Shown here: positions 5,656-17,666 of the stretch, piece after piece
Layout of the letters: each line of letters begins with the position of its first letter
How positions within the stretch are numbered: the stretch's first letter is position 1
Source: Pseudomonadota bacterium
GTDB taxonomy: Bacteria > Pseudomonadota > Gammaproteobacteria > Steroidobacterales > JBCBZW01
DNA length: 64,000 nt
Direction of reading: 5' to 3'
NCBI GenBank assembly: GCA_039815145.1
Contig: JBCBZW010000003.1
Coordinates: 1-64,000 of the forward strand
Program-made: the position numbers and the translations under genes
Notes under the pieces: model-generated
The model's database searches: none
Told to the model about the DNA's origin: nothing
Seen by the model: the letters and a program-made list of their open reading frames with translations, nothing else

Positions 5656-6672
5656 TCAGTCGTAGATCGTGTCGTCCTCTGCCGGCTCCGGCTCCAGGTG
5701 TTCGCTGATCGAAGGGGCGTCCGGTGCGGCGAACTCGTAGACATCAACGCCGTCGAGCGCGCCGTCGAGCATCGAACTGCCGGCGCCCTCACGCTCAGCA
5801 CTCAGCCGCTCCACACCGCTCGCCACGTAGGCATCGCCTGGGTCCGCGTGCAGGATCTCCGTCTCCACCTCCATGTCCGTGAGGACGGCGGCCTCGGCGA
5901 CGGGCCGGGCGCTCTCCACCATCGCCAGGACGCCAGGCTCCGCCACGGTGACCTCCAAGGCCACCTCGTCGCCGCCGGCCAAGGCCTCGCTACGCTCCTC
6001 CACCCACTGCAGGTCCTGCTCGAAGCGCTCCGTAAAGGAGGGGCCGGCGCCCTCGAGGTCGCCGAGGTTCTGCCACACGCCCGCGTGGGACTCCATGTAC
6101 TCCCGCGCCCATTGCTGGGCCTGCGCGGGCGATTGCCCCGCGTCGATGCGCTCGCGCATCCCCACGTCGAGGAAGTCCTTGGTGGACTGGTAGGCGCCCA
6201 TGGCGCCCTCGGTGGCGCTGGCCTCTCGCAGCTGCCCGTCGGGGCCGAACTGTTGATACTCGGTTAGCTTCTCCGATAGCGCCTCACCGGTCTCGTGCAC
6301 GGCGTAGTTCAGCATCACCCCGCCGGGGCCTAAGCTGTCGAGGTAGCCACTCGCCACCCCGTCCACCACCTCTGCCCCGAGCTTCGCGCCCGCGTACTCC
6401 AGGTCGCCGCGCTCCACGGCCTGGGCGATCTCCACCGCCTTGCCCAACTTGTCGATGGTGTCGAAGTGCTTGCCGAGCGCTTCGGTCTTCTGCGCGAGGT
6501 CGGCGTAGTCCTCGAGGCGATGCACCGCGTCGAGGGCCGTGTCCCAGTCCTTGGCCTTGGCCGCAGACACCAGCGTCTGCAATGACTCGCTTTGACCGTG
6601 CTTGGCCGCCCAGGCGGTCAGTTCGTTGAAGGTCTTGGCTTCGCTCGGCACTTCGGGGAGATCACCGGCCAT
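5656..6672 (-). CDS. Acidic hypothetical protein of the shared-promoter regulon (ends DDTIYD)
   Basis: 338 residues, no signal peptide and no clear membrane helix, strongly acidic and rich in Ala, Glu, Leu and Asp, largely helical by composition. I recognise no domain. The last residues EPAEDDTIYD resemble the tails of two other proteins in the block (DYDGPDVYV and GDSSIYTDVS), and T-I-Y-D fits the general pThr-x-x-Asp pattern read by FHA domains; that link is inference. It is transcribed from promoter 6735-6707, one of seven identical-spacing promoters, divergently from the small membrane protein at 6818. Confidence 0.75.
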   Translation of the reverse strand: MAGDLPEVPSEAKTFNELTAWAAKHGQSESLQTLVSAAKAKDWDTALDAVHRLEDYADLAQKTEALGKHFDTIDKLGKAVEIAQAVERGDLEYAGAKLGAEVVDGVASGYLDSLGPGGVMLNYAVHETGEALSEKLTEYQQFGPDGQLREASATEGAMGAYQSTKDFLDVGMRERIDAGQSPAQAQQWAREYMESHAGVWQNLGDLEGAGPSFTERFEQDLQWVEERSEALAGGDEVALEVTVAEPGVLAMVESARPVAEAAVLTDMEVETEILHADPGDAYVASGVERLSAEREGAGSSMLDGALDGVDVYEFAAPDAPSISEHLEPEPAEDDTIYD

Positions 6673-6698: not shown

Positions 6699-6735
6699 TA
6701 CCCCCTTAGGCGCTGGAACGGGGCGAAGCGGCTCA
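6699..6735 (-). promoter_or_regulatory. Shared-motif promoter (TGAGCC-N17-CGCCTA) for the gene at 6672
   Basis: On the minus strand: TGAGCC at 6735-6730, 17 nt, CGCCTA at 6712-6707, and a TA start dinucleotide with the predicted +1 A at 6699. The leader to the ATG at 6672 is 27 nt. It is divergent to the similar promoter at 6758-6794. Confidence 0.8.
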
Positions 6736-6757
6736 ACGGCCGCTCAGGGCGCGAGGG

Positions 6758-6794
6758 TGAGCCAAGCCGTCGCTCGATGACGCCTTACGGAGCA
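6758..6794 (+). promoter_or_regulatory. Shared-motif promoter (TGAGCC-N17-CGCCTT) for the gene at 6818
   Basis: TGAGCC at 6758-6763, 17 nt, CGCCTT at 6781-6786, and a CA start dinucleotide with predicted +1 A at 6794. The leader to the ATG at 6818 is 24 nt and contains the RBS AGGAGG. Confidence 0.75.
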
Positions 6795-6817
6795 ACGCTT
6801 CCAGGAGGTTGTTGCCG

Positions 6818-7285
6818 ATGTCCGCTCCGTCCCCCTCGCGCCGCGGCGGTGCGCCCCGTGTCGTCTACCGCTACGGCGCCCTCGCGTGGGTGTGGCGCGC
6901 CATGATCGCCGTGGCCATCGCGCTCACCGCCGGTGCCCTGCTCTTGGACTTGAGCCTCGGGGAATGGGGCGTGACCTACGTGGCGCTACCGATGTTCGTG
7001 CCGGCGGTCATCGGCGGCTGGGTCACGGTGACCCGCATCGAGGTGCCGGCCGGTGAGGGCAAGGTGCTCGAGGTGCGCAACCTCTTCGGCATCCGCCGGC
7101 GGATCAAGCGTCGGCGCCTGCGCGGCACGTGGAAGCGCGACACGGTCTATGGCACCTACGGGCAACCGTTACCGGCACCGCGCCTGTGGGTGTGGGTGCG
7201 GGGCGGCATGCCCCTGTATCTGGACCTGTTGGCGCCGCTGGTCGATCGTGCGGCCCTGCAGCGCCTCATCGCCACCCGTTTCTGA
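6818..7285 (+). CDS. Small two-helix membrane protein of the regulon
   Basis: 155 residues. Two hydrophobic helices (about 28-48, with VAIALTAGALLLDL, and 52-72, with ALPMFVPAVIGGW) precede a basic cytosolic tail (RNLFGIRRRIKRRRLRG), the general layout of small bacterial PH-like membrane proteins, but I do not assign a family. The frame is open from a TTG at 6809, but RBS AGGAGG at 6803-6808 is 9 nt before the ATG at 6818, which I take as the start. Its stop codon TGA (7283-7285) is also the first half of the next promoter's -35 element. Confidence 0.7.
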   Translation: MSAPSPSRRGGAPRVVYRYGALAWVWRAMIAVAIALTAGALLLDLSLGEWGVTYVALPMFVPAVIGGWVTVTRIEVPAGEGKVLEVRNLFGIRRRIKRRRLRGTWKRDTVYGTYGQPLPAPRLWVWVRGGMPLYLDLLAPLVDRAALQRLIATRF

Positions 7286-7319
7286 GCCGATTTCGCGCTC
7301 CGCTACGCCTGAAGGGATA
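7283..7319 (+). promoter_or_regulatory. Shared-motif promoter (TGAGCC-N17-CGCCTG) for the gene at 7348
   Basis: TGAGCC at 7283-7288, 17 nt, CGCCTG at 7306-7311, and a TA start with predicted +1 A at 7319. The leader is 29 nt. The first three bases of the -35 are the stop codon of the upstream gene. Confidence 0.8.
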
Positions 7320-7347
7320 ACCCCCACAGGAAAGATGGAGCTGAGCA

Positions 7348-8229
7348 ATGGCCGAAGGCAACCCCTCTGACAAGAACCAGGACACCCCCGCGGAACTCGC
7401 TCCGAACATGTGGTTCACCGAGTACGGCATGCCCTTCACCACCATGATCCTCGAGGCGGAGGCTGCCGAGCGTAACAACCCGGAGGCGCCTCCCCAGGAG
7501 GAGCGCAGCGATCTCGCCCAATTCATCATCGATCAGGAGACGGCCGTCGCGCGCGACTACCACGCCGGCCTCATCACCAAAGAGGAGTTCGAGGGCTACA
7601 AGGCCGACGCCCAGGATCGCTTCGACAACATGGTCGACAAGCTGAGCACGGAGATCGAGGAGTTCGGCGATGACTTCGAGGACTGGGGTAAGGACTTCGA
7701 AGTGTCGGTAAAGGACTTTGCCGACGAGCACGGGGGAGAGATCGAGTCCATCGTGGATCTCGCCAAGACCCGCGAACTCGAGGCCAAGGACGTCTCCCTG
7801 CACCTGATGGCCGATGCCATGGGGCTCGGCGTCGATGGCGTGGACGATCTCCTCGAGCGCATGCCGCCGCACCTGCACGACATCGTGGACGCCTTGGGCG
7901 AGGAGACCGTGGGCGTCGCCCATCACCTGCTCGATGCCCGCGAGGAACTCAGCTCTGCCGACCAACACGACCTCAGCCGCGACGAGGCCCGCCTGGAGGA
8001 GATCGAACCGGTGTTCGAAGCACAGATCGATGAGGCCCACGAAGGCATCGACCAAGACTTCGAACGCATCGACAACGACTTAGGCATAGTCCAGGACTAC
8101 GTCGAAGCGGCTCAGGATCACGGTGAGAACTATCCCGAGCTCACGGTGGAACACATGCCCTATCGCACCACCGAAGACTACGATCTGCCCGAGCAGATCG
8201 AAGATGAAACCGGCATCACGGACGCGTAG
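7348..8229 (+). CDS. Acidic hypothetical protein of the regulon, co-transcribed with FHA protein
   Basis: 293 residues, no signal peptide or membrane helix, very rich in Asp and Glu. It has long charged helical stretches (EEFGDDFEDWGKDFEVSVKD, EIEPVFEAQIDEAHEGIDQD) that could form coiled coils. No domain is recognised. The tail is QIEDETGITDA; the TD near the end recalls the YTDVS end of the 17361 protein. An RBS-like GGAG precedes the ATG. The FHA gene starts 6 bases after its stop, so the two form an operon driven by the promoter at 7283-7319. Confidence 0.75.
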   Translation: MAEGNPSDKNQDTPAELAPNMWFTEYGMPFTTMILEAEAAERNNPEAPPQEERSDLAQFIIDQETAVARDYHAGLITKEEFEGYKADAQDRFDNMVDKLSTEIEEFGDDFEDWGKDFEVSVKDFADEHGGEIESIVDLAKTRELEAKDVSLHLMADAMGLGVDGVDDLLERMPPHLHDIVDALGEETVGVAHHLLDAREELSSADQHDLSRDEARLEEIEPVFEAQIDEAHEGIDQDFERIDNDLGIVQDYVEAAQDHGENYPELTVEHMPYRTTEDYDLPEQIEDETGITDA

Positions 8230-8235
8230 GCAACG

Positions 8236-8856
8236 ATGAACGCGTCCTACCCCGAGGGTCGCTTAGGCGTCGGCGCGCGGGTGCTGCGCACGACCGGCTT
8301 GTACACGGTGGCAGCCTGGGGCGCCGCGCTCGGCGCGCCCGAGCTGCTGCCGAGCTTCGGTCTCGACGACGACGTCTACGTGCGCTGGGTCGCTATCGTG
8401 GCGGCCGCCAGCGTGCCTATCGTCGCCGTTAGTGCTTGGTGCTGGGAACGTGCTCAGGGTGCACCGTCTCCTGCGACGACCGCGCCGAGTCCCTCGCCAA
8501 CGCTCGCCATGGACCCCACGGTCGCCGCCACCGGGCGAGCGGCCGTCTCCGTACAGTGGCGTGGTGAGCTGCATCACTTCTCGCAAGACCTGGTGATGGG
8601 GCGGGCGCCCAGCTGCGCCCTGCACCTGGACGATCCGCAGATCTCCCGTCGCCACGCGGCGATCGAGTTTCGCCGCGGGCGCTGGGTGCTGCGGGATCTC
8701 GGTTCGCGCAACGGCACGCGCCTCGACGGCAAGCTGATCGACGGCGAAGCCCCCCTCGGTGCCACGGCCCGCATCGACCTCTACGAAGGCGGCGTCCCCC
8801 TGGTCGTGCACACCGGCATCGGCGGTGACACGACCGTCAGCGACAGCGCTGGCTGA
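8236..8856 (+). CDS. Membrane-anchored FHA-domain protein
   Basis: 206 residues. Two hydrophobic segments (about 20-38 and 50-68) are followed by a Pro/Ala/Ser/Thr linker (about 75-100) and a complete FHA domain (about 104-195). It has the canonical residues: GR (122-123), SRRH (137-140) and SRNGT (157-161). FHA domains bind phosphothreonine peptides, so this protein is the natural reader of the Ser/Thr kinase encoded next door on the opposite strand. The two genes overlap tail to tail by 20 bases (8837-8856). It is co-transcribed with the acidic protein at 7348. Confidence 0.9.
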   Translation: MNASYPEGRLGVGARVLRTTGLYTVAAWGAALGAPELLPSFGLDDDVYVRWVAIVAAASVPIVAVSAWCWERAQGAPSPATTAPSPSPTLAMDPTVAATGRAAVSVQWRGELHHFSQDLVMGRAPSCALHLDDPQISRRHAAIEFRRGRWVLRDLGSRNGTRLDGKLIDGEAPLGATARIDLYEGGVPLVVHTGIGGDTTVSDSAG

Positions 8857-11323
8857 GTCGCTCCTGCACGGGGTCCAGGCCGCCGGCGATGTCGGCGGCG
8901 GAGAGCGTGCCGCCTTCGCGTTGCAGGCTCCGAAAGAGCGTCTCGGCGTGGCGGTAGTAGGGGCAACCGTCTTCCGCCTGATCTGTCGTGGCCGCGGCGA
9001 TATCCCCAGCGTCGGTCAGGGCGATCGCCTGGTCGCGGACCAGGGCGTCGTTGTCCTCCTCATCCTCGGCGAGCTGGCGAAAGGTGTTCACCGCGAGGTC
9101 GATGCTGCTGCGCGCGTCGTCGTGGCGCTCGAGGCCCGACAGCGCCTTGGCGATCTGCTGGTGGGTGAGGGCCAGGTTGCGCCGGCTCTGGGCGTCGCGT
9201 GGCTCGGCGTCGACCAGTGTCTGGGCCGCCTCGCGACTGGCGATGCCGTAGCGCAGGGCGTCCTCGAACTGGTCGAGGGAGGCGTGGAGGTTGCCGAGGT
9301 TGTGGTTGAAACGGATCAGTTGCACCAGCAACTGCACGTTCTCCGGCTCCTCGGCGGCACGCCCCTCGTAGAACTGCAGTGCCTCGAGGTAATCCGGGAT
9401 GGCCGCTTGGGCGTCGCCTGAGTCGGCGTAGGTTTCCCCGCGCAGGCCGTAGGCGTAGGCCCGCTTGCCCGCCCAGTTGCCCAGGTTCTCCCGCCACGCG
9501 GGCTGCTCCAGCTGCGGTAGGTACTCCCCGAGCAGGTTCAGGGCGTCCTCGAACTCGCGTGCCCAGACGAGCACCTTCACCAGATCGATGCGCAGATTCC
9601 AGCGTCGGCTCTGCAGCGTCCAATCGGGGGTGGCTTGCTGGTCGATGGCGCGATCGGCGAGGGTCAGGCCCTCGCGGGCATGGGCCTGCGCGGCGTCGGT
9701 GTTCATGTCGTAGTGGAGCGTGTGGTTGGTGGCGAGGCGCTTCACCCACACCATCTCCGTGACGGCCTGTGTGTTGTCCGGTTCGAGCTCGAGGAGCTTC
9801 TCGAGGGCGAGTTCCGCCTTATCGAGCTGCTCGAGCCCGCGCTCGTTCTGCCCGAGGCTGGAGACGCCCAGCCCAGCGAACACATCGTATAGGCGCGAGT
9901 AGTTCGAGCCGATGTCGAGGAGCAGATCTGGAGGGGCGGACGGATCTGCCGCGAGCTCGTCGAGGAAGCGTTCGCCGGTGGCGGCCAGTTGCTCCCGGGC
10001 GGGCAGCGTGCCTTGCACGTGGGACATGCGATCGTAGACGTCGTAGAGCACTTCCCGGGCCAGCCGGCGGGCCTGGTCGAAGCGCGCATCGGCCCGCTGG
10101 CGGGCCTCGGTCGCCGCCTGGTACTGCACCAAGGTGATGGCGTAGGCCACGGCCAGCGCCGCGATCGCGACGGTGGCGCCGGCCACGGCGAAGCGACGCC
10201 GCCGCACGAACTTACCCACTCGATAGGCCAGGGAGTCGCCCTTGGCCTGCACGGGGAAGCCCTCGAGGTAGCGGCGCAGGTCATCGGCGAAGGCGGCGAC
10301 GGAGGGGTAGCGTCGCTCCGGCTCCTTGGCCATGGCCTTGAGGACGATCGCATCGAGCTCGCCACGCAGGTGTCCCCACTCGGCGAGGTCGCGCTGGCGG
10401 GCGCGCTGGCTCGGCGCATCGGGCCGTCGCTGGGTGATCACCTGCTCGTACTGCGAGGGCGAGAGGCTCTCGGTGTCGAAGGGACGTTCGCCGGTCAACA
10501 TCTGATAGAGGGCGACGCCGAGCGAGTACACGTCCGTGGCGGTGGTCAGCGGTTCACCGGTGACCTGTTCGGGGCTGGCGTAGGCCGGGGTGAGGAGCAT
10601 GGCGACGGTCTCCTCGCCGCTCTCCTTCGGCAGCAACGAACGGGCGATCCCGAAGTCCAGGAGCTTGGGTTCACCGTCCTCGGTGACCAGCACGTTGCTG
10701 GGCTTGATGTCGCGGTGGATCACCAACGCGCGGTGGGCGTGCTCGACGGCGCCACAGATCTTCAGGAACAGGCGAATGCGATCGGCGATGGGCAAGGGAT
10801 GGGTGCGCAGGTACACATCGAGGGGATCGCCATCGATGTACTCCATGACCACGAAGGGCAGGCCGTCGTCGGTGGTGCCGCCGTCGAGCAGGTTCGCGAT
10901 TCCCGAGTGGCGCATGTCCGAGAGGATCTGCCGTTCCCGCTCGAATTGCGCCACGGCCCGGCTACCGATCGCCGACGCACGGATCACCTTCACCGCCACC
11001 TTGGCGTCGAAGGCGCCATCGTCGCGCTCGGCCAGATAGACCTGACCCATGCCGCCCTCGCCGATCAGCTCCAGCACCCGGTAGGGCCCGATCCGCTGGC
11101 CCGTGAGCCGCTGCTCCGCCGAGCGCACCATGAGGGTGATCTCGTCTTCGCCCATGCCCGTCTCTTCCGCGGCGGCGCTGATCAGGCGTTCGGCGCGCGA
11201 GCGAAGGGCGGCGGGGCAATGCTCATCCAGCCAGGGGGTGCGTTCGGCGTGGGGAACATCGAGAGCGTCCTCCACCAGGCGCAGGAGTTGTTTTCCCGTA
11301 TCTTGGGAGTCGGGTTCTGTCAT
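8837..11323 (-). CDS. Transmembrane Ser/Thr protein kinase with TPR-like sensor region
   Basis: 828 residues. A short helical region (1-75) precedes the kinase domain (about 80-355), which is intact: P-loop GEGGMG (88-93), VAVK lysine K112, catalytic HRDIKPSN (from 203), DFG (223-225) and the activation-segment TPAYASPEQV. One membrane helix at about 379-399 follows a basic RRRR stretch. The remaining 425 residues are helical TPR-like repeats, predicted outside the cytoplasm. This is the PknB-like architecture often found beside ECF sigma factors of the TIGR02999 type, and one is encoded divergently 80 bases away. The upstream region lacks the shared TGAGCC promoter, so the kinase is likely an input of the regulon and not an output. 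Confidence 0.93.
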   Translation of the reverse strand: MTEPDSQDTGKQLLRLVEDALDVPHAERTPWLDEHCPAALRSRAERLISAAAEETGMGEDEITLMVRSAEQRLTGQRIGPYRVLELIGEGGMGQVYLAERDDGAFDAKVAVKVIRASAIGSRAVAQFERERQILSDMRHSGIANLLDGGTTDDGLPFVVMEYIDGDPLDVYLRTHPLPIADRIRLFLKICGAVEHAHRALVIHRDIKPSNVLVTEDGEPKLLDFGIARSLLPKESGEETVAMLLTPAYASPEQVTGEPLTTATDVYSLGVALYQMLTGERPFDTESLSPSQYEQVITQRRPDAPSQRARQRDLAEWGHLRGELDAIVLKAMAKEPERRYPSVAAFADDLRRYLEGFPVQAKGDSLAYRVGKFVRRRRFAVAGATVAIAALAVAYAITLVQYQAATEARQRADARFDQARRLAREVLYDVYDRMSHVQGTLPAREQLAATGERFLDELAADPSAPPDLLLDIGSNYSRLYDVFAGLGVSSLGQNERGLEQLDKAELALEKLLELEPDNTQAVTEMVWVKRLATNHTLHYDMNTDAAQAHAREGLTLADRAIDQQATPDWTLQSRRWNLRIDLVKVLVWAREFEDALNLLGEYLPQLEQPAWRENLGNWAGKRAYAYGLRGETYADSGDAQAAIPDYLEALQFYEGRAAEEPENVQLLVQLIRFNHNLGNLHASLDQFEDALRYGIASREAAQTLVDAEPRDAQSRRNLALTHQQIAKALSGLERHDDARSSIDLAVNTFRQLAEDEEDNDALVRDQAIALTDAGDIAAATTDQAEDGCPYYRHAETLFRSLQREGGTLSAADIAGGLDPVQERLSQRCR

Positions 11324-11403
11324 CGGTGTGCTACTTCTGCAAAACTGCTCGTAGGGTTGGAGCTGGATCCGTCACGCCATCATCGAGAAGAGCTGAACAG
11401 GCC

Positions 11404-11958
11404 ATGAGTGACATCACCCAAGTGCTGCAGAACTGGTCGCAGGAGTCGTCGGAAGAGCGCGGCCGGGTGGTTGCGGCCATGTACGATGAGTTGCGGCGCA
11501 ACGCCGTCTCCCACCTGCGCAACGAACGCCATGGGGATCTGCAGCCCACTTCGTTGGTTAACGAAGCCTTCATGCGCCTAATCAACATAACGCGCATCGA
11601 CCTCAAGGGACGCAATCACTTCCTCGGCCTCGCCGGGCGGATCATGCGCGAGATTCTGGTAGACGAGGCGCGCAAGCTGCGCGCCGCCAAGCGCGACCAC
11701 GGCCTGCAGACGCGCTTCACCGGCGAGCACATGGGCAGCGACCTGCCCGTGAGCGACCTGCTGGAACTGGATGAGCTCCTCAACGGCCTCGAGGCGATCG
11801 ATCCCGTCTACGTCAAGCTCTTCGAAGCGCGTGCGTTCGCAGGCATGACCATCGAAGAGGCGGCCGAGGTGCTCGAGATGTCCCCAGCCACGGTTAAGCG
11901 TAAGTGGAAGGTCGCCATGGCCTGGGTGCGCGAGCATATGGGCGAACCTACTGAATGA
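11404..11958 (+). CDS. ECF sigma factor, TIGR02999-like, probably phosphorylation-controlled
   Basis: 184 residues, with sigma regions 2 and 4. The region-4 helix-turn-helix is MTIEEAAEVLEMSPATVKRKWKVA, given here in parts: MTIEEAAEVLEM then SPATVKRKWK. Where classic ECF factors carry an acidic DAED-like segment in region 2.2, this one has LQPTSLVNEAF (T49, S50). In the EcfP-PknT pair of Vibrio parahaemolyticus such a Thr is phosphorylated by the partner kinase to allow core RNA polymerase binding; the same is inferred here with the kinase at 8837-11323. The frame is open from a GTG at 11326, but the ATG at 11404 (MSDITQVLQ) matches family N-termini. Its 3' end overlaps the protease gene by 11 bases. 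Confidence 0.9.
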   Translation: MSDITQVLQNWSQESSEERGRVVAAMYDELRRNAVSHLRNERHGDLQPTSLVNEAFMRLINITRIDLKGRNHFLGLAGRIMREILVDEARKLRAAKRDHGLQTRFTGEHMGSDLPVSDLLELDELLNGLEAIDPVYVKLFEARAFAGMTIEEAAEVLEMSPATVKRKWKVAMAWVREHMGEPTE

Positions 11959-12610
11959 CGATGGCCTGCTCCCAGATCTGAGCGACCTGCGAGAAGGGCA
12001 CCGGCTGGGTGTAGTAGGCCATGGGATCGTTGATGATCAACATCGGCTCGACGGTGCCGTAGGGCGTCGGCATCCAGGCCATCCCCCGCAGCACCACCAC
12101 GTGGCCGGCGAAGGGTGAGCTCTTCACCGCCATGATGATCGCCTTGCCCGCCGCCAGGGTCTGATACAAGGTCATCGGATCCGTTGGGCGCTGCACCGAC
12201 GAGTGCCGACCGCCGAACTCGGCGATCAATGCCTGAATCTGTGGCAGTTGCCCGGTGACGGTGCAGTTGGCGGGGTTGCCGCAGCAGCTGTTGGGGTGCT
12301 GGCCGAAAGCGCGGGCGACGAGGGCGCACTGGGGCGGTGTGGCCTGCGGGCCGCGCGTCGCCATGATGATCTGCTGTGCCACCGCCGCCCAACACCACAC
12401 CTGCGTCTGCTGCGGGATGTTCTGGATCGGCAGATCGACGGGCGGCGGCAACTGCGGCGCTTGGGGCTGACCCCAGCCCGGCGGCGGGCCAGGCTGAGGG
12501 TAAGGGTATTGCGCCTGGGCGACGCCCGCGGCGATCAGGAGCAGCAAGGCGAGGGTGGACCTGAGCACGGTCTTGGCGCTGGTGGTCGTCGACCGAGGCC
12601 GGCTCACCAT
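11948..12610 (-). CDS. Secreted papain-like cysteine protease (C39/C70-like)
   Basis: 220 residues. An N-terminal signal peptide (about 1-34, ending AQAQ) leads into a Pro/Gln/Tyr-rich stretch (YPYPQPGPPPGWGQPQ). The protease domain has the papain-like elements QTQVWCWAA (Cys73), GHVVVLRG (His170) and IINDP (Asp195), a plausible Cys-His-Asp triad of the AvrRpt2/C39-like type. Four extra Cys lie in the CGNPANC region. The ATG overlaps the stop of the GYGPQ-repeat gene by 7 bases (ATGGTGA), so the two are translationally coupled. Its Pro/Gln-rich N-terminus resembles its neighbours' composition, suggesting it works on or with them. The frame stays open further upstream, but that part only mirrors the neighbour gene. 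Confidence 0.85.
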   Translation of the reverse strand: MVSRPRSTTTSAKTVLRSTLALLLLIAAGVAQAQYPYPQPGPPPGWGQPQAPQLPPPVDLPIQNIPQQTQVWCWAAVAQQIIMATRGPQATPPQCALVARAFGQHPNSCCGNPANCTVTGQLPQIQALIAEFGGRHSSVQRPTDPMTLYQTLAAGKAIIMAVKSSPFAGHVVVLRGMAWMPTPYGTVEPMLIINDPMAYYTQPVPFSQVAQIWEQAIVIQ

Positions 12611-13203
12611 TCCCCGTCCGCTTCGTTGCCGTCGATCACCACCTCGCCGGACTGATTCCAGCCGGTGTTGGGGCCTTGCGGTCCGTAGCCTGGAGCTTGG
12701 GGCCCGTAGCCGGGCGTTTGCGGTCCGTAGCCGGGGCCAGGACCCTGCGGGCCGTAGCCTGGGCCCTGCGGACCGTAGCCGGGCCCCTGCGGTCCATAGC
12801 CTGGCGTCTGCGGTCCGTACCCGGGCGCCTGTGGGCCTTGGGGGCCGTACCCCGGCGTCTGCGGTCCGTAGCCCGGACCCTGGGGGCCATAGCCAGGTCC
12901 CTGCGGCCCGTAGCCAGGGCCCTGGGGGCCGTAGGGGGCGGGCTGAGGTCCGTTGGGCCCGTAGCCCGGGCCGTTGCCGGGCACCGGCGCGCAGCCGCCG
13001 TTGCTGCCGGGCCCCGCCGTCGGGAGCATGCCCGGCGGGCATTGAGAGTAGGCCTGCTGGTTGTCCCAGGGATTGTTGCCGTACGGGTCGCCGAGCAGTC
13101 CCTGCTGTTCCGCCCACAAGTAGCCGCCCATGCCTACCGCGATGGCGGCGATGAGGGCGATGCGCTGTTGGCCGGTGAGCGTCTTGAGCTTGTTCAAGTC
13201 CAT
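12604..13203 (-). CDS. Membrane-anchored GYGPQ-repeat low-complexity protein
   Basis: 199 residues. A short basic N-terminus, one hydrophobic helix (about 14-30, ALIAAIAVGMGGYLW), a Cys-containing spacer, then about 110 residues of near-perfect GPGYGPQ heptads (about 12 GYGPQ copies with TP/AP variants), and an acidic end EVVIDGNEADGEW. The repeat is Gly/Pro/Tyr/Gln-only and should be disordered or form self-associating fibrous material. No family is assigned. ATG at 13203 is preceded by GGAG. It is driven by the promoter at 13274-13238 and coupled to the cysteine protease by a 7-base overlap. Confidence 0.8.
   Translation of the reverse strand: MDLNKLKTLTGQQRIALIAAIAVGMGGYLWAEQQGLLGDPYGNNPWDNQQAYSQCPPGMLPTAGPGSNGGCAPVPGNGPGYGPNGPQPAPYGPQGPGYGPQGPGYGPQGPGYGPQTPGYGPQGPQAPGYGPQTPGYGPQGPGYGPQGPGYGPQGPGPGYGPQTPGYGPQAPGYGPQGPNTGWNQSGEVVIDGNEADGEW
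12670..12972 (-). repeat. Coding tandem repeat (GYGPQ heptads)
   Basis: About 300 bases of imperfect 21-base direct repeats encoding GPGYGPQ units, interrupted by TPGYGPQ and APGYGPQ variants and by two insertions. The high identity at DNA level makes copy-number change by slippage or recombination likely. This is inside a gene and is not a CRISPR array. Confidence 0.85.
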
Positions 13204-13237
13204 GGTCGTGGCTCCGATGTGATGCTTGCTTGTTGCC

Positions 13238-13274
13238 TGTTTCCCTAGGCGCACTCGGGGCGCCGATTGGCTCA
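13238..13274 (-). promoter_or_regulatory. Shared-motif promoter (TGAGCC-N17-CGCCTA) for the GYGPQ-repeat gene
   Basis: On the minus strand: TGAGCC at 13274-13269, 17 nt, CGCCTA at 13251-13246, CA start with predicted +1 A at 13238. Leader 35 nt to the ATG at 13203. Confidence 0.8.
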
Positions 13275-13286
13275 CGGCAGGGCGAT

Positions 13287-13694
13287 TCAGAAGTTGTCCT
13301 GGTGGTGGTCCGCGTCGGGGTTCGGGTAGGTCTCACGTTGCGGATACATGGCGCTGTCCATGCCCGGCGTCAGCTGCGGGTAGGCGCCTGCCTGGCCGGG
13401 GACGCCCGGGTAACCGGGCTGTTGCGGGTAACCAGGCTGTTGCGGGTAGCCAGGTTGCTGCGGGTAGTAGGCGCCCGGGCCCTGCTGTATCAGGCCGTTC
13501 ATCTGCTGCATCTCGAGCATCATCTGTTGCTGCTGTTGCTCGATTTGCTGCTGCGACCATGCGGCGTACTCCTGGGCCTGCTGCTGCATGGCGGCGTTCT
13601 GCGCCGCCACGCTGAGGGGCCCGGCCAGCTTGGCCAGGACGACCAGGCCGATGATGCCGAGGAGGAAGAGTTTCGGGAGGACGCTGCTGTTCAT
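13287..13694 (-). CDS. Membrane-anchored Gln-rich / YPQQPG-repeat protein
   Basis: 135 residues. An N-terminal hydrophobic helix (about 7-25, LFLLGIIGLVVLAKLAG) serves as anchor or signal. Residues 36-72 are a Gln/Met/Ala-rich helix (QQQIEQQQQQMMLEMQQM), then three YPQQPG units (77-95) and a Tyr/Pro-rich acidic-His tail. No domain is recognised; in layout it is a smaller sister of the GYGPQ protein that follows after 83 bases. The frame is open much further upstream, but the ATG at 13694 fits the hydrophobic start and the promoter at 13761-13725. Confidence 0.75.
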   Translation of the reverse strand: MNSSVLPKLFLLGIIGLVVLAKLAGPLSVAAQNAAMQQQAQEYAAWSQQQIEQQQQQMMLEMQQMNGLIQQGPGAYYPQQPGYPQQPGYPQQPGYPGVPGQAGAYPQLTPGMDSAMYPQRETYPNPDADHHQDNF

Positions 13695-13724
13695 GGCCTG
13701 GAGGCTCCGGTTGCGTAGGGGCTG

Positions 13725-13761
13725 TACCGGTCTAGGCGAAAGCGCTGGGGATTTTGGCTCA
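13725..13761 (-). promoter_or_regulatory. Shared-motif promoter (TGAGCC-N17-CGCCTA) for the gene at 13694
   Basis: On the minus strand: TGAGCC at 13761-13756, 17 nt, CGCCTA at 13738-13733, TA start with predicted +1 A at 13725. Leader 31 nt. Back to back with the divergent promoter at 13784-13820. Confidence 0.8.
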
Positions 13762-13783
13762 CGGCGGCGCCGCACTGTGGCCG

Positions 13784-13820
13784 TGAGCCGATTCGGGTGT
13801 GCTCCGCGCCTAAGGGGGCA
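13784..13820 (+). promoter_or_regulatory. Shared-motif promoter (TGAGCC-N17-CGCCTA) for the operon from 13851
   Basis: TGAGCC at 13784-13789, 17 nt, CGCCTA at 13807-13812, CA start with predicted +1 A at 13820. Leader 31 nt. It probably drives 13851, 14714 and 16228. Confidence 0.8.
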
Positions 13821-13850
13821 ATCCATCCTCAAGTACGACCGGAGCTGACC

Positions 13851-14714
13851 ATGACTGCCACCGAAGCCACCATCGCCTGCCCGAAGTGCGGCAATCCGAA
13901 CCCGATCGGCGCCAAGTTCTGCAGCAGCTGTCGCACGGCCCTCGGTGTCGCAACGCCGCCCCCGGGCCCGACGCCGCCGCCGCCCCAGCGGCCGGCCGGG
14001 GGACTCGCGGGCATGGTTGGCGCTGGCGCGGGCAAGAGTGAGACGCGGCAACTGCAGGCGGACGCGGGCGCCGTGTTCGAACACCTGGCGAACGGCCTGC
14101 GCAACCGCGGCGGTCAGGTGCAGCAGGAGATGCCGCAGCAGTTGAACATCAAGGTGCCCTACAAGAGCTTCTGGCTCACCCTGGGTGCGGTGATCCAAGT
14201 CGACACCGCCCTGCAGGTGGTGCCGACGGCGGCGGGTCAATGCCAGGCCACACTCACCACAAAGACCGATGGCAGCAGCCTGAACAACGTGTGGACCTGG
14301 TTTGGTCTGTCCTTCACGGTTCTGCTGTTCCTGAACCTCTACATCTTCCCGATCATCATCCTGTTCGGTGCCGCGAGCGCCTTCCTCACCCATCGTCAGC
14401 TGAACAGCCAGCCCGGCGCGAAGATCACCGAGGGACTCTTCGCGGATCTCAACAACAACCTATCTTCCTTGTCAGCTAGTGCGGATCAGCCCACGCAGCC
14501 CGCGCCAGGGCCCAGCCCGCAACCCGCACCCCAGCCCACGCCGCCACCGGGCCCGCAGGCGAGCGCTCCCGCTAGTGACGCGAGTGCCGACGATGCCGAA
14601 GCGGAAGAGGAGGTCTTCGAGCGCCTGGCCAAGCTCGCCAAGTTGCGCGAGATGGGGGCGGTGACAGAGGAGGAGTTCGACGCCAAGAAGGCCGAACTTC
14701 TGAAGCGGATCTGA
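13851..14714 (+). CDS. Zinc-ribbon membrane protein with C-terminal SHOCT domain
   Basis: 287 residues. An N-terminal zinc ribbon (CPKC at 10-13, CSSC at 24-27), a Pro-rich linker (35-50), a globular region (about 65-145), a hydrophobic segment or hairpin (about 150-180), a second Pro/Gln-rich linker (212-240) and a C-terminal SHOCT helical hairpin (about 253-287, LAKLREMGAVTEEEFDAKKA). SHOCT domains are short oligomerisation modules. The start ATG 13851 has GGAG 8 nt upstream; a longer frame from 13797 would overlap the promoter. Its stop overlaps the next start (TGATG). Confidence 0.85.
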   Translation: MTATEATIACPKCGNPNPIGAKFCSSCRTALGVATPPPGPTPPPPQRPAGGLAGMVGAGAGKSETRQLQADAGAVFEHLANGLRNRGGQVQQEMPQQLNIKVPYKSFWLTLGAVIQVDTALQVVPTAAGQCQATLTTKTDGSSLNNVWTWFGLSFTVLLFLNLYIFPIIILFGAASAFLTHRQLNSQPGAKITEGLFADLNNNLSSLSASADQPTQPAPGPSPQPAPQPTPPPGPQASAPASDASADDAEAEEEVFERLAKLAKLREMGAVTEEEFDAKKAELLKRI

Positions 14715-16213
14715 TGGTGAGTGAAGCGGCCGCGCAGTACTGCGTCGCCTGCGGCCATGCGCTGCAGGCGGGCGCCAGCTTCTGTACCGAGTGCGGCCAC
14801 GAGGTGGGCAAAGCGCCAGCCGCTCAGCATGCGCCGCAGATGCTCGGCGGCGCCTGCACCACGTGCGGTGGCGACGGCAGCGGCCTCGCCGCGAGCCAGG
14901 TGTACTGCCCCAGCTGCCGCTGGCTGCGTCCCCTCGGCGAGGATTACTTCGTCGATCTCGATGCCTTCATCTGGCAGATGGACGCCCAGGCCATGCAGGC
15001 CCTCAACAGCACCGGCGCGGTGGCGAGCGCCGCGCACTCCATCGCGGAACGCTACGGCCGACCGGTCTTCGAGGCGGCCACCAACGGCATCCGGCTCTCG
15101 GAGCGGCAGATGCCCGAGATCTTCGATATCGCGATCCGCGCCGCGCGGCTCCTGTCCCTGACCCACATGCCCGAGGTGTACATCTCCGGCCAGCGCATGT
15201 GGGACGTGTACTCCCTCGGTGGCTTCAGCGGCAGCTTCGTCTCGATCGGTAGCGTGCTGATCAACTTCAAGCCGAAGGATCTCCTGTTCCTCATCGCGCG
15301 GGAGATGGGCCACGTGCGCGCCGGCCACGTGTACTGGTCGACCGCCATGCAGTTTCTGATGGGGCAGTCCAAGGGTCAGGGCACGATCCTCGGCGAGGGC
15401 GTGTTCCAGTTCCTGAACCCGACCAAGATCATCGAGTCGGCGATCGAGGCGCCGATGATGCGCTGGGCGCGCCATTCGCAGATCACGGCGGATCGCGCGG
15501 CAGCGCTGGTGACCGGGGATATCGACACGGCCCGACGGGTGCTCACCCAATGGGCCATGAAGTCCTTCCCCGTGGCCGGCAAGATGAACCTCGATGCCTG
15601 GCTCGAACAGGAAGCGGCCGCGGACGACCCTTACCTGAAGCTGTCCGAGTGGACCATGTCCACCGAGCCCTACCTGGCGCCGCGCTTGAAGTCCCTGAAC
15701 GAGTTCGTGCACTCCGACGCCTTCGTCGAGTGGTTCGCCTACATCCAGCACTGGAGCGAGCAGGCAGGCCTGCCATCGCTGGCTGAGGTTGGGGCGAAGA
15801 AACCCGCTAAGCGAGGCAAGCCGGCCCCGCCGCCTCCCAACACGGAACGCATCGAATGTCGCGCCTGCGGCGAAGGGATGCGCGTGCCCAACCACGTGCT
15901 GGCGGGTGATAAGCCGGTCAACATCCGCTGCCCCAACAAGGCCTGCCGCAAGGTGCTCAGGGTGAAACCGCAGCCGCAGCCGCAAGCAACCGCTCGCGAG
16001 GAGTCGGCGCGGACGCGACGGGCGAGGGAGAAGGTCAAGCTCAATTGCGCCGCCTGCGGCGAAGCCATGATGGTGAACCGGGCGGATCTGGCGGGCGATG
16101 AGCCGGTCAACGTGCGCTGCCCAAATGCGGCCTGCGGCGAGGTGCTCACGATCAAACCAAAGAAGAAGCGTGATGACGGCCCCGCCGAGCGCCCGGACCT
16201 GATGGCTGACTGA
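14714..16213 (+). CDS. M48-like zinc-ribbon protein with degenerate metalloprotease site
   Basis: 499 residues. N-terminal zinc ribbons (CVAC...CTEC at 10-27; CTTC...CPSC at 48-68), a central M48-like domain (about 100-290) and two similar C-terminal zinc ribbons (CRACGEGM...CPNKAC and CAACGEAM...CPNAAC), suggesting internal duplication. The M48 HEXXH site reads AREMGH (R196 in place of the first zinc His; E197 and H200 kept), and the usual ExxAD third-ligand Glu is Gln (SQITADRA, Q257). By contrast the HtpX in this window keeps HEIAH and EFRAD. Probably a pseudoprotease or adaptor. Its start overlaps the previous stop by one base, so they are coupled. Confidence 0.85.
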   Translation: MVSEAAAQYCVACGHALQAGASFCTECGHEVGKAPAAQHAPQMLGGACTTCGGDGSGLAASQVYCPSCRWLRPLGEDYFVDLDAFIWQMDAQAMQALNSTGAVASAAHSIAERYGRPVFEAATNGIRLSERQMPEIFDIAIRAARLLSLTHMPEVYISGQRMWDVYSLGGFSGSFVSIGSVLINFKPKDLLFLIAREMGHVRAGHVYWSTAMQFLMGQSKGQGTILGEGVFQFLNPTKIIESAIEAPMMRWARHSQITADRAAALVTGDIDTARRVLTQWAMKSFPVAGKMNLDAWLEQEAAADDPYLKLSEWTMSTEPYLAPRLKSLNEFVHSDAFVEWFAYIQHWSEQAGLPSLAEVGAKKPAKRGKPAPPPPNTERIECRACGEGMRVPNHVLAGDKPVNIRCPNKACRKVLRVKPQPQPQATAREESARTRRAREKVKLNCAACGEAMMVNRADLAGDEPVNVRCPNAACGEVLTIKPKKKRDDGPAERPDLMAD

Positions 16214-16227
16214 GGGAGGACGATCAG

Positions 16228-16716
16228 ATGAGCGAGCGAGATGTACCGCAGGAGTTCGAGGTGTCCCTGGCCGAAGATCGCCATCAGGAAGTGGCGGCAG
16301 AAGAGGCGACTGCCGACGAGAGTGCGCTCGAGCGGGCGATGGCCGGTCGCGAGAGTGCGGCCGCGGCGAGTGCCCAGGCCTCGGCAAGCCTCGCCCAGAG
16401 TCAGGCCCAGGCGCACGCCAACGCCCAGGCCCAACAGACCCTGGCCGAGGACGAAATCGTCGAGGCCGACCTGCTCGCTGAGGAGCAGGTACACAAGCGG
16501 GAGGAGGAGCATCGCCTCGAGGTGGAGATCGCCGAGGATCAGCGACAGGAGGCGCTCGAGGCGCAGGCCGAGGCGGAGGCTGAGCGGCAGGAGGCCGAGG
16601 AACGCGCACGGGAGGAAGAGGAAGCCCGAGAGCGCGAGGAAGCCGAGGCGCGCGAGCGGGAAGAGGAGGAGGCCGAGGATGACGAGGACTACGATGGACC
16701 CGACGTCTATGTCTGA
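16228..16716 (+). CDS. Glu/Ala-rich coiled-coil protein (ends DYDGPDVYV)
   Basis: 162 residues, almost entirely helical and charged. An Ala/Ser/Gln-rich stretch (about 45-72) is followed by a continuous Glu/Arg heptad region (about 78-150) that should form a long coiled coil, and an acidic tail DDEDYDGPDVYV. No signal peptide or domain. A very strong RBS (GAGGGAGGA, 7 nt before the ATG) follows 14 bases after the M48-like gene, so it belongs to the operon from 13851. Its TGA stop starts the next promoter's -35. Confidence 0.75.
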   Translation: MSERDVPQEFEVSLAEDRHQEVAAEEATADESALERAMAGRESAAAASAQASASLAQSQAQAHANAQAQQTLAEDEIVEADLLAEEQVHKREEEHRLEVEIAEDQRQEALEAQAEAEAERQEAEERAREEEEAREREEAEAREREEEEAEDDEDYDGPDVYV

Positions 16717-16750
16717 GCCGATTTACGCGCGCGCCACGCCTAATCAGGCA
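16714..16750 (+). promoter_or_regulatory. Shared-motif promoter (TGAGCC-N17-CGCCTA) for the gene at 16780
   Basis: TGAGCC at 16714-16719 (its TGA is the stop codon of the upstream gene), 17 nt, CGCCTA at 16737-16742, CA start with predicted +1 A at 16750. Leader 30 nt to the ATG at 16780. Confidence 0.8.
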
Positions 16751-16779: not shown

Positions 16780-17361
16780 ATGGCCGAATCACGTTACACC
16801 GACATCGATCGACCCGAGCCCGGCACCGCCGAGGCCGTCGAGGCCGAGTACGAAGTTGAACTCGCCGGACTCAACGAGCATGAGACCGCGCAGGTGAAGG
16901 AGGCGATCAGCGAGGCGCAGTTCAACGATGAGCTCGATCAGCTGGACGTGAGCGAAGAGGTGCAGCAAGCCCAGTTCGCCGAGGAGGCCCGCGCCGAAGC
17001 CGAGACCTTGCGTGAGCAACAGGTGGAGGCGGCCGATGCCGGCAACTACGATGCGGCCCGCGAGCGCGCCGAGCAGGTGCGCGACGAGCTGCGCGAGTCG
17101 AGCGAAGAGCACGGCGGCCAGCTGGATACCGCCCTGGCCGAGAACGCCCACGATGTGGAGGTGCTGAACGAGGCGGACTTCCAGCAGGAGAACGCCGAGT
17201 TCTTCGAGGACGCGGTGGTGGACATGCCGAGCGGCGAGGGGGCCGACGGTGCCCTGGACGATGCCTGGGACGCGCAGGACGCCGCGGACGATGCTGCCGA
17301 CGACAGCACCGACTTCGAAGACACGGGCGGTGACAGTTCCATCTACACGGACGTCAGCTAA
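16780..17361 (+). CDS. Highly acidic hypothetical protein of the regulon (ends SSIYTDVS)
   Basis: 193 residues, about one third Asp plus Glu with very few aromatic residues. Helical Ala/Glu-rich region (about 15-140), then an Asp/Ala-rich tail (DDAWDAQDAADDAADDSTDF) ending GGDSSIYTDVS. No signal peptide, membrane helix or known domain. GAGG lies 9 nt before the ATG. It is followed after 5 bases by another small acidic-tailed gene, so the two are co-transcribed from the promoter at 16714-16750. Confidence 0.75.
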   Translation: MAESRYTDIDRPEPGTAEAVEAEYEVELAGLNEHETAQVKEAISEAQFNDELDQLDVSEEVQQAQFAEEARAEAETLREQQVEAADAGNYDAARERAEQVRDELRESSEEHGGQLDTALAENAHDVEVLNEADFQQENAEFFEDAVVDMPSGEGADGALDDAWDAQDAADDAADDSTDFEDTGGDSSIYTDVS

Positions 17362-17366
17362 GGCGG

Positions 17367-17666
17367 ATGAGCACTCGACGGCAGGGGCGCTGGGTCGAGG
17401 CGACGCCGGCGGACCCGCAGCGCGCCGAGCAGCGGCGCGCTCAGGTTACGACGCCCCCCGAACAGGCTATCCCGGGCGATGGCAATCCGCCCCTTGAAAC
17501 GGAGGCGCTCGAGCCGCCGGCGGCACTCACGGTGGCGGGCGAGCGCCTGATCGAGGCCAGGCCTGCGCTCGAGCATGAGGTGGATGACATCGCGGGTGAG
17601 GATGTGGCGGTGGCCGATGTCGCCGGCGAGGATCCGAGTCCGGACACCCTGAGCGAAGAGGACTGA
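17367..17666 (+). CDS. Small hypothetical protein with acidic tail
   Basis: 99 residues: a basic N-terminal third (MSTRRQGRWVEATPADPQRA), a Pro-rich middle and an acidic C-terminal third ending DPSPDTLSEED. No recognised domain. It begins 5 bases after the stop of the previous gene with AAGGCGG as a close RBS overlapping that stop. It could be a partner of the acidic 193-residue protein. Confidence 0.6.
   Translation: MSTRRQGRWVEATPADPQRAEQRRAQVTTPPEQAIPGDGNPPLETEALEPPAALTVAGERLIEARPALEHEVDDIAGEDVAVADVAGEDPSPDTLSEED

Follow-up and report, generated by a model that had tools for sequence, protein, structure and literature searches.

The DNA analysed here, a window of 64,000 nt, contains a block of genes with seven copies of a two-box element, TGAGCC followed after 17 bases by CGCCT, which are very probably the promoters of one ECF-sigma regulon whose sigma factor is encoded at 11404-11958 and probably gated by a divergently encoded kinase. 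A pattern scan of the whole window found exactly seven matches to TGAGCC-17-CGCCT, all inside 10 kb, each at the coordinates that a sequence-only reading had assigned, and its remark, made by eye, that the window holds no other full match proved right. The count expected in the window is 0.12 (0.11-0.16 under Markov models of order 1-4), 0/100 shuffles reached seven, and P(>=7) calculated from the word frequencies actually observed is ~8e-11. When the spacing between GAGCC and CGCCT was varied from 10 to 25 bases, no spacing except 17 gave more than two matches, and the exact 17-base gap claimed for these sites is essentially the sole spacing used in the window.

Five of the seven sites are wholly intergenic, and those at 7283 and 16714 take an upstream stop codon as the start of the -35 box, as had been noticed. 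The leaders measure 24-35 nt, as had also been reported, and a pyrimidine-A step marks the predicted start at all seven sites, at a distance of 8-9 bases after CGCCT. The back-to-back arrangement described earlier holds, although the "two sites" of that description should read two pairs (6735-/6758+ and 13761-/13784+), both with exactly 23 bp between -35 starts. Divergent pairs with 22-24 bp between -35 starts, a spacing of about two helical turns, recur in the window, in a congener and in the Luteimonas-type loci L110, L113, L115, L123 and L141, the last group in another gene context. No sigma-70-like site was found in the block.

Table 1. Putative promoters (-35 to predicted +1), regulatory genes and predicted regulon genes of the block, with two sites elsewhere in the genome. 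G000, window genome; G001, congener.
Feature	Position	Strand	Product, or genes predicted to be driven	Evidence or conservation
Promoter 1	6699..6735	-	5656-6672	exact match; congener TGAGCC-17-CGCCC
Promoter 2	6758..6794	+	6818-7285; divergent from promoter 1	exact match; kept in congener
Promoter 3	7283..7319	+	7348-8229 and 8236-8856	exact match; kept in congener
Promoter 4	13238..13274	-	12604-13203 and 11948-12610	exact match; kept in congener
Promoter 5	13725..13761	-	13287-13694	exact match; kept in congener
Promoter 6	13784..13820	+	13851-14714, 14714-16213, probably 16228-16716; divergent from promoter 5	exact match; congener TGAGCT-17-CGCCT
Promoter 7	16714..16750	+	16780-17361, probably 17367-17666	exact match; kept in congener
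ECF sigma	11404..11958	+	184 aa, TIGR02999/PF07638	QPTS in region 2.2, K167 in -35 helix
Kinase	8837..11323	-	Hanks-type Ser/Thr kinase, one membrane segment (about residue 378), then TPR repeats	Pkinase 7e-46, TPR; hydropathy
Regulon gene	5656..6672	-	338 aa, no family	
Regulon gene	6818..7285	+	155 aa membrane protein, no family	
Regulon gene	7348..8229	+	293 aa, predicted long helical bundle	51-60% identical in L085-L087
Regulon gene	8236..8856	+	membrane-anchored FHA (phosphothreonine-binding) protein	FHA 1.7e-17; hydropathy
Regulon gene	11948..12610	-	papain-like cysteine peptidase, signal-peptide-like N-terminus (VWCWAA, GHVVVLRG, INDP)	Peptidase_C70 4.4e-5; alignment; fold matches
Regulon gene	12604..13203	-	membrane segment and GYGPQ repeats	
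Regulon gene	13287..13694	-	membrane segment and YPQQPG repeats	
Regulon gene	13851..14714	+	zinc ribbon, membrane segment, SHOCT tail	SHOCT 4.6e-8
Regulon gene	14714..16213	+	zinc ribbons and M48-like domain, REMGH replacing HExxH	Peptidase_M48 1.1e-8; sequences
Probable regulon gene	16228..16716	+	acidic coiled coil, no family	
Regulon gene	16780..17361	+	acidic helical protein, conserved SIYTD tail	alignment
Probable last gene of promoter-7 transcript	17367..17666	+	99 aa, no family	
Off-block site 1	G000:C7:64390		before Sel1-repeat-like lipoprotein	= G001:C13:77455; Sel1 and lipoprotein reading by eye
Off-block site 2	G000:C27:35938		before acidic 245-aa protein	= G001:C69:6544

The congener (G001) carries all seven block sites at orthologous places, five of them exact and two with one change, and the 17-base spacing is kept at 7/7. 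In the aligned promoters of the two genomes, 2/77 bases changed in the boxes as against 36/119 in the spacers (p=2.6e-7, boxes vs spacer), while the flanks, compared ungapped, differ at 47/140 positions in the 20 bases after the -10 and at 143/280 in the upstream stretch. As tested for ECF-type promoters, the elements are boxes at fixed spacing that lie upstream of genes and are conserved over their spacer.

The sigma of the block belongs to the TIGR02999/PF07638 family, scoring 160 bits against TIGR02999 (curated cut-off 126.15) and 136.8 bits against PF07638 (21.1), and a scan of public genomes for its homologues gave 80 loci. The neighbourhoods of the eight nearest contain 17 matches to TGANCC-g-CGCCT at g=17 vs 0-2 at any other gap; the 21 other gammaproteobacterial loci hold 28 such sites at g=17 vs 0-5 elsewhere, and the remaining 51, mostly from Acidobacteriota, hold 10 vs 1-6 at other gaps. 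In a maximum-likelihood tree of 97 sigmas, whose bootstrap was not fully converged, 25 of the 30 site-bearing loci fall in one 32-row clade (support 97/89), such that a site is present at 25/32 loci inside the clade vs 5/65 outside; the other 7/32 clade members have no site near the sigma. The motif generalised across genomes is TGANCC-17-CGCCY, with a variable fourth base in the -35. As judged from these genomes, the element is not confined to the window genome but goes with a clade of ECF sigmas, most of them kinase-linked. Family members above the cut-off occur in only 18/369 sampled genomes of the class, and TIGR02999 sigmas sampled across the class have no site within about 1.5 kb. A de novo dyad search around the sigma genes was overwhelmed by the signal of conserved coding regions.

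There is strong support for the view that the seven putative promoters are of ECF type and that the sigma at 11404-11958 reads them: the phylogenetic footprint, the cross-genome spacing spectrum, the persistence of sites beside genes that have moved and their absence around 12 paralogous sigmas all point to it. The proposal of this sigma as the reader of ECF-like promoters, made when only the letters had been inspected, is supported by the same four observations. The genome does contain 12 further sigma genes of the family, most with an adjoining kinase, and one of these might read the sites while the local sigma serves something else. We consider this improbable, given that no site was found in 76 kb of neighbourhood around the 12 (loci L166-L177), that they differ in the -35 helix, and that across genomes the sites track the clade of the block's sigma.

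It is similarly improbable that the boxes are binding sites of an activator or repressor and not promoter elements. Two conserved boxes at a fixed 17-base spacing can form a bipartite operator, and the divergent pairs would suit one, yet the boxes are neither symmetric nor repeated, all face the same way, stand within a narrow range of distances from the start codon, are followed at fixed distance by a pyrimidine-purine step, have no sigma-70-like promoter beside them, and co-occur with a sigma clade rather than with a DNA-binding regulator. Least credible of all is chance, or a compositional artefact of a GC-rich genome: although background alone yields about nine matches of the 11-base core per spacing in 6 Mb, it does not account for seven in 10 kb vs 0.12 expected in 64 kb, for conservation of the boxes over the spacers, or for the same spacing spike in other genomes.

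Under the promoter reading, region 4 of the sigma would recognise the -35 TGAGCC, after which come RA and a run rich in T, and region 2 the -10 CGCCT across a rigid 17-base spacer; transcription would initiate 8-9 bases past the -10, on the purine of a pyrimidine-purine step. A logo built from 55 different sites that precede reading frames has the consensus TGANCC-R-N-T-T-Y, then pyrimidines and a G before CGCCT; the pyrimidine-purine step recurs 8-9 bases past CGCCT, and start codons come mostly 30-50 nt after the -10. The transcription starts named here are likewise positions predicted from sequence. Where the residue that follows ATVKR in the sigma's -35 helix is K, R, H, Q, S or N, the 32 loci concerned yield 47 sites at gap 17 as against 1-10 at any other; where it is D or E, 48 loci yield 5 as against 2-8. 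This fits the residue after ATVKR as a specificity residue, a correlation that is confounded by descent and is not followed by some polar-residue sigmas, which have no site.

EcfP and its relatives are without the acidic DAED motif of region 2.2 and are inactive until a Thr at that place is phosphorylated by the neighbouring kinase (PMC8999054; PMC13147305); linker phosphosites and a functional T51A variant of EcfK have also been reported (PMC13147305). The sigma of the window likewise lacks an acidic DAED in region 2.2, has a Thr at the phosphorylated position and adjoins a receptor-type Hanks kinase, as do EcfP/PknT of Vibrio parahaemolyticus, EcfK/PknS of Xanthomonas citri and ECF43 (PMC8999054, PMC13147305), and by its region 2.2 and adjoining kinase we regard it as ECF43-like. 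It differs in having QPTS in place of the QTTA/STTA of the EcfP and EcfK systems, and in that those systems serve T6SS or the polymyxin response, whereas its own predicted targets are papain-like protease, FHA, zinc-ribbon, M48-like, repeat and acidic proteins. From QPTS or QxTA with a kinase next door, together with the ECF43 precedent, we infer a kinase-gated sigma: wanting the acidic residues with which ECF sigmas bind RNA polymerase, and with a Thr there, it would probably be idle until phosphorylated by the membrane kinase, and once active would switch on the block operons together with at least two distant genes.

The kinase and sigma genes of the window diverge, with 80 bp between start codons, and most sigma homologues combine QxT[A/S] (mostly QxTA) at the region 2.2 position with a nearby kinase. 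At L051, L052 and L092 (a short contig), sites are present, no kinase was seen beside the sigma, and Ser or Gly replaces the Thr; because some site-bearing members are of this kind, kinase control appears not to be universal in the clade. In two genomes of another family (L051:11098-11841, L052:6098-6934), the sigma homologue is 49% identical and has no kinase beside it; a divergent site pair comes after it, before a protein with a VPxPA-type C-terminal sorting tail. The motif is absent from both the sigma and the kinase gene of the window, which gives no sign of autoregulation there; in Arenimonas and relatives the sigma gene is immediately preceded by a site, which lies on the strand that encodes the divergent kinase.

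To our knowledge, kinase-activated sigma factors are common and few of their targets are known. ECF promoter families with -35 boxes of TGATCC/GAAC type include ECF11, with TGATCC. These families resemble the window sites in having two short boxes, a TGANCC-resembling -35 and a spacing of 16-18 bases, and the window sites would be set apart from them by a CGCCY -10, an exact 17-base spacer and a kinase-linked sigma clade in place of anti-sigma control. The promoter code is absent from the ECF43 literature examined (PMC8999054, PMC13147305), and the main text of a comparable survey, which reports 29 motifs for 43 subgroups, does not name ECF43 (PMC3817407). No publication that gives the two boxes together turned up in a literature search whose coverage stopped short of the ECF classification paper and its supplement, where the motif may already be predicted. 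Linking a promoter code to one defined clade of sigmas allows regulons to be listed from sequence alone in many genomes, makes the role of the -35 helix in specificity cleanly testable, and draws attention to an envelope or secretion module that is still uncharacterised.

That module is conserved at three loci, L085, L086 and L087, whose sigmas are 86, 67 and 67% identical to that of the window and which share the coiled-coil protein, papain-like protease, zinc-ribbon/SHOCT, M48-like and acidic helical proteins, kinase and sigma. Sites precede most of the module transcription units despite changed order and orientation, with TGATCC, TGACCC and TGAACC as -35 and also CGCCC as -10, and in L086 and L087 the protease gene has been relocated with its own site. 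The site nearest the coiled-coil gene of L086 lies ~540 bp upstream, with a 129-aa frame between. Alignment of the protease finds Cys, His and Asn/Asp invariant, and its structure model, although of low confidence (pLDDT 64), has matches that agree on a papain-like fold, among them staphopain and C39-like peptidases. The 293-aa protein gave no useful structural relative, family scans of the block's uncharacterised proteins returned nothing for most, and PADLOC hits were essentially generic kinase matches. The products presumably act at the cell envelope and the signal is presumably envelope stress or attack, our best guess being an envelope or antagonism response.

More broadly, and with somewhat less than even confidence, we suggest that the whole, mostly kinase-linked clade may read TGANCC(R)-17-CGCCY with a specificity that depends largely on which residue follows ATVKR (in the clade K/H/Q/S/N, elsewhere D/E), and that its window branch may drive an undescribed kinase-triggered module of a secreted papain-like protease, membrane zinc-ribbon and M48-like proteins and a conserved coiled-coil protein from divergent promoters about two helical turns apart.

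Pattern searches of the 6.0 Mb genome gave a divided answer to the genome-wide scan that had been proposed as a check. The bare 11-base core has 19 matches at gap 17 vs a mean of ~9 at other gaps and is near background outside the block; the cluster and an extended form of the motif stand out. Exact matches to the extended form, TGAGCCRA-15-CGCCTR, number eight. The block holds five, and of the three others two recur exactly in G001, the sole congener compared. The sites had been described as controlling a single gene block, a description that needs some widening for these two further conserved sites; their retention in the congener indicates that the predicted regulon reaches beyond the block, with at least two members outside it.

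Active M48 peptidases have HExxH. The REMGH of the M48-like protein is also found in L085 and L087, and the protein may be a non-catalytic pseudo-peptidase kept by selection. The acidic proteins of 5656-6672, 16228-16716 and 16780-17361 end similarly, in DDTIYD, GPDVYV and SIYTDVS; the last of these proteins retains its SIYTD tail in L085 and L087 and has SIHTD in L086, and the tail may be a recognition signal. Close to the module of L086, a second sigma-kinase pair of the same family (L086:2593-4377) lies near divergent sites only 10 bp apart.
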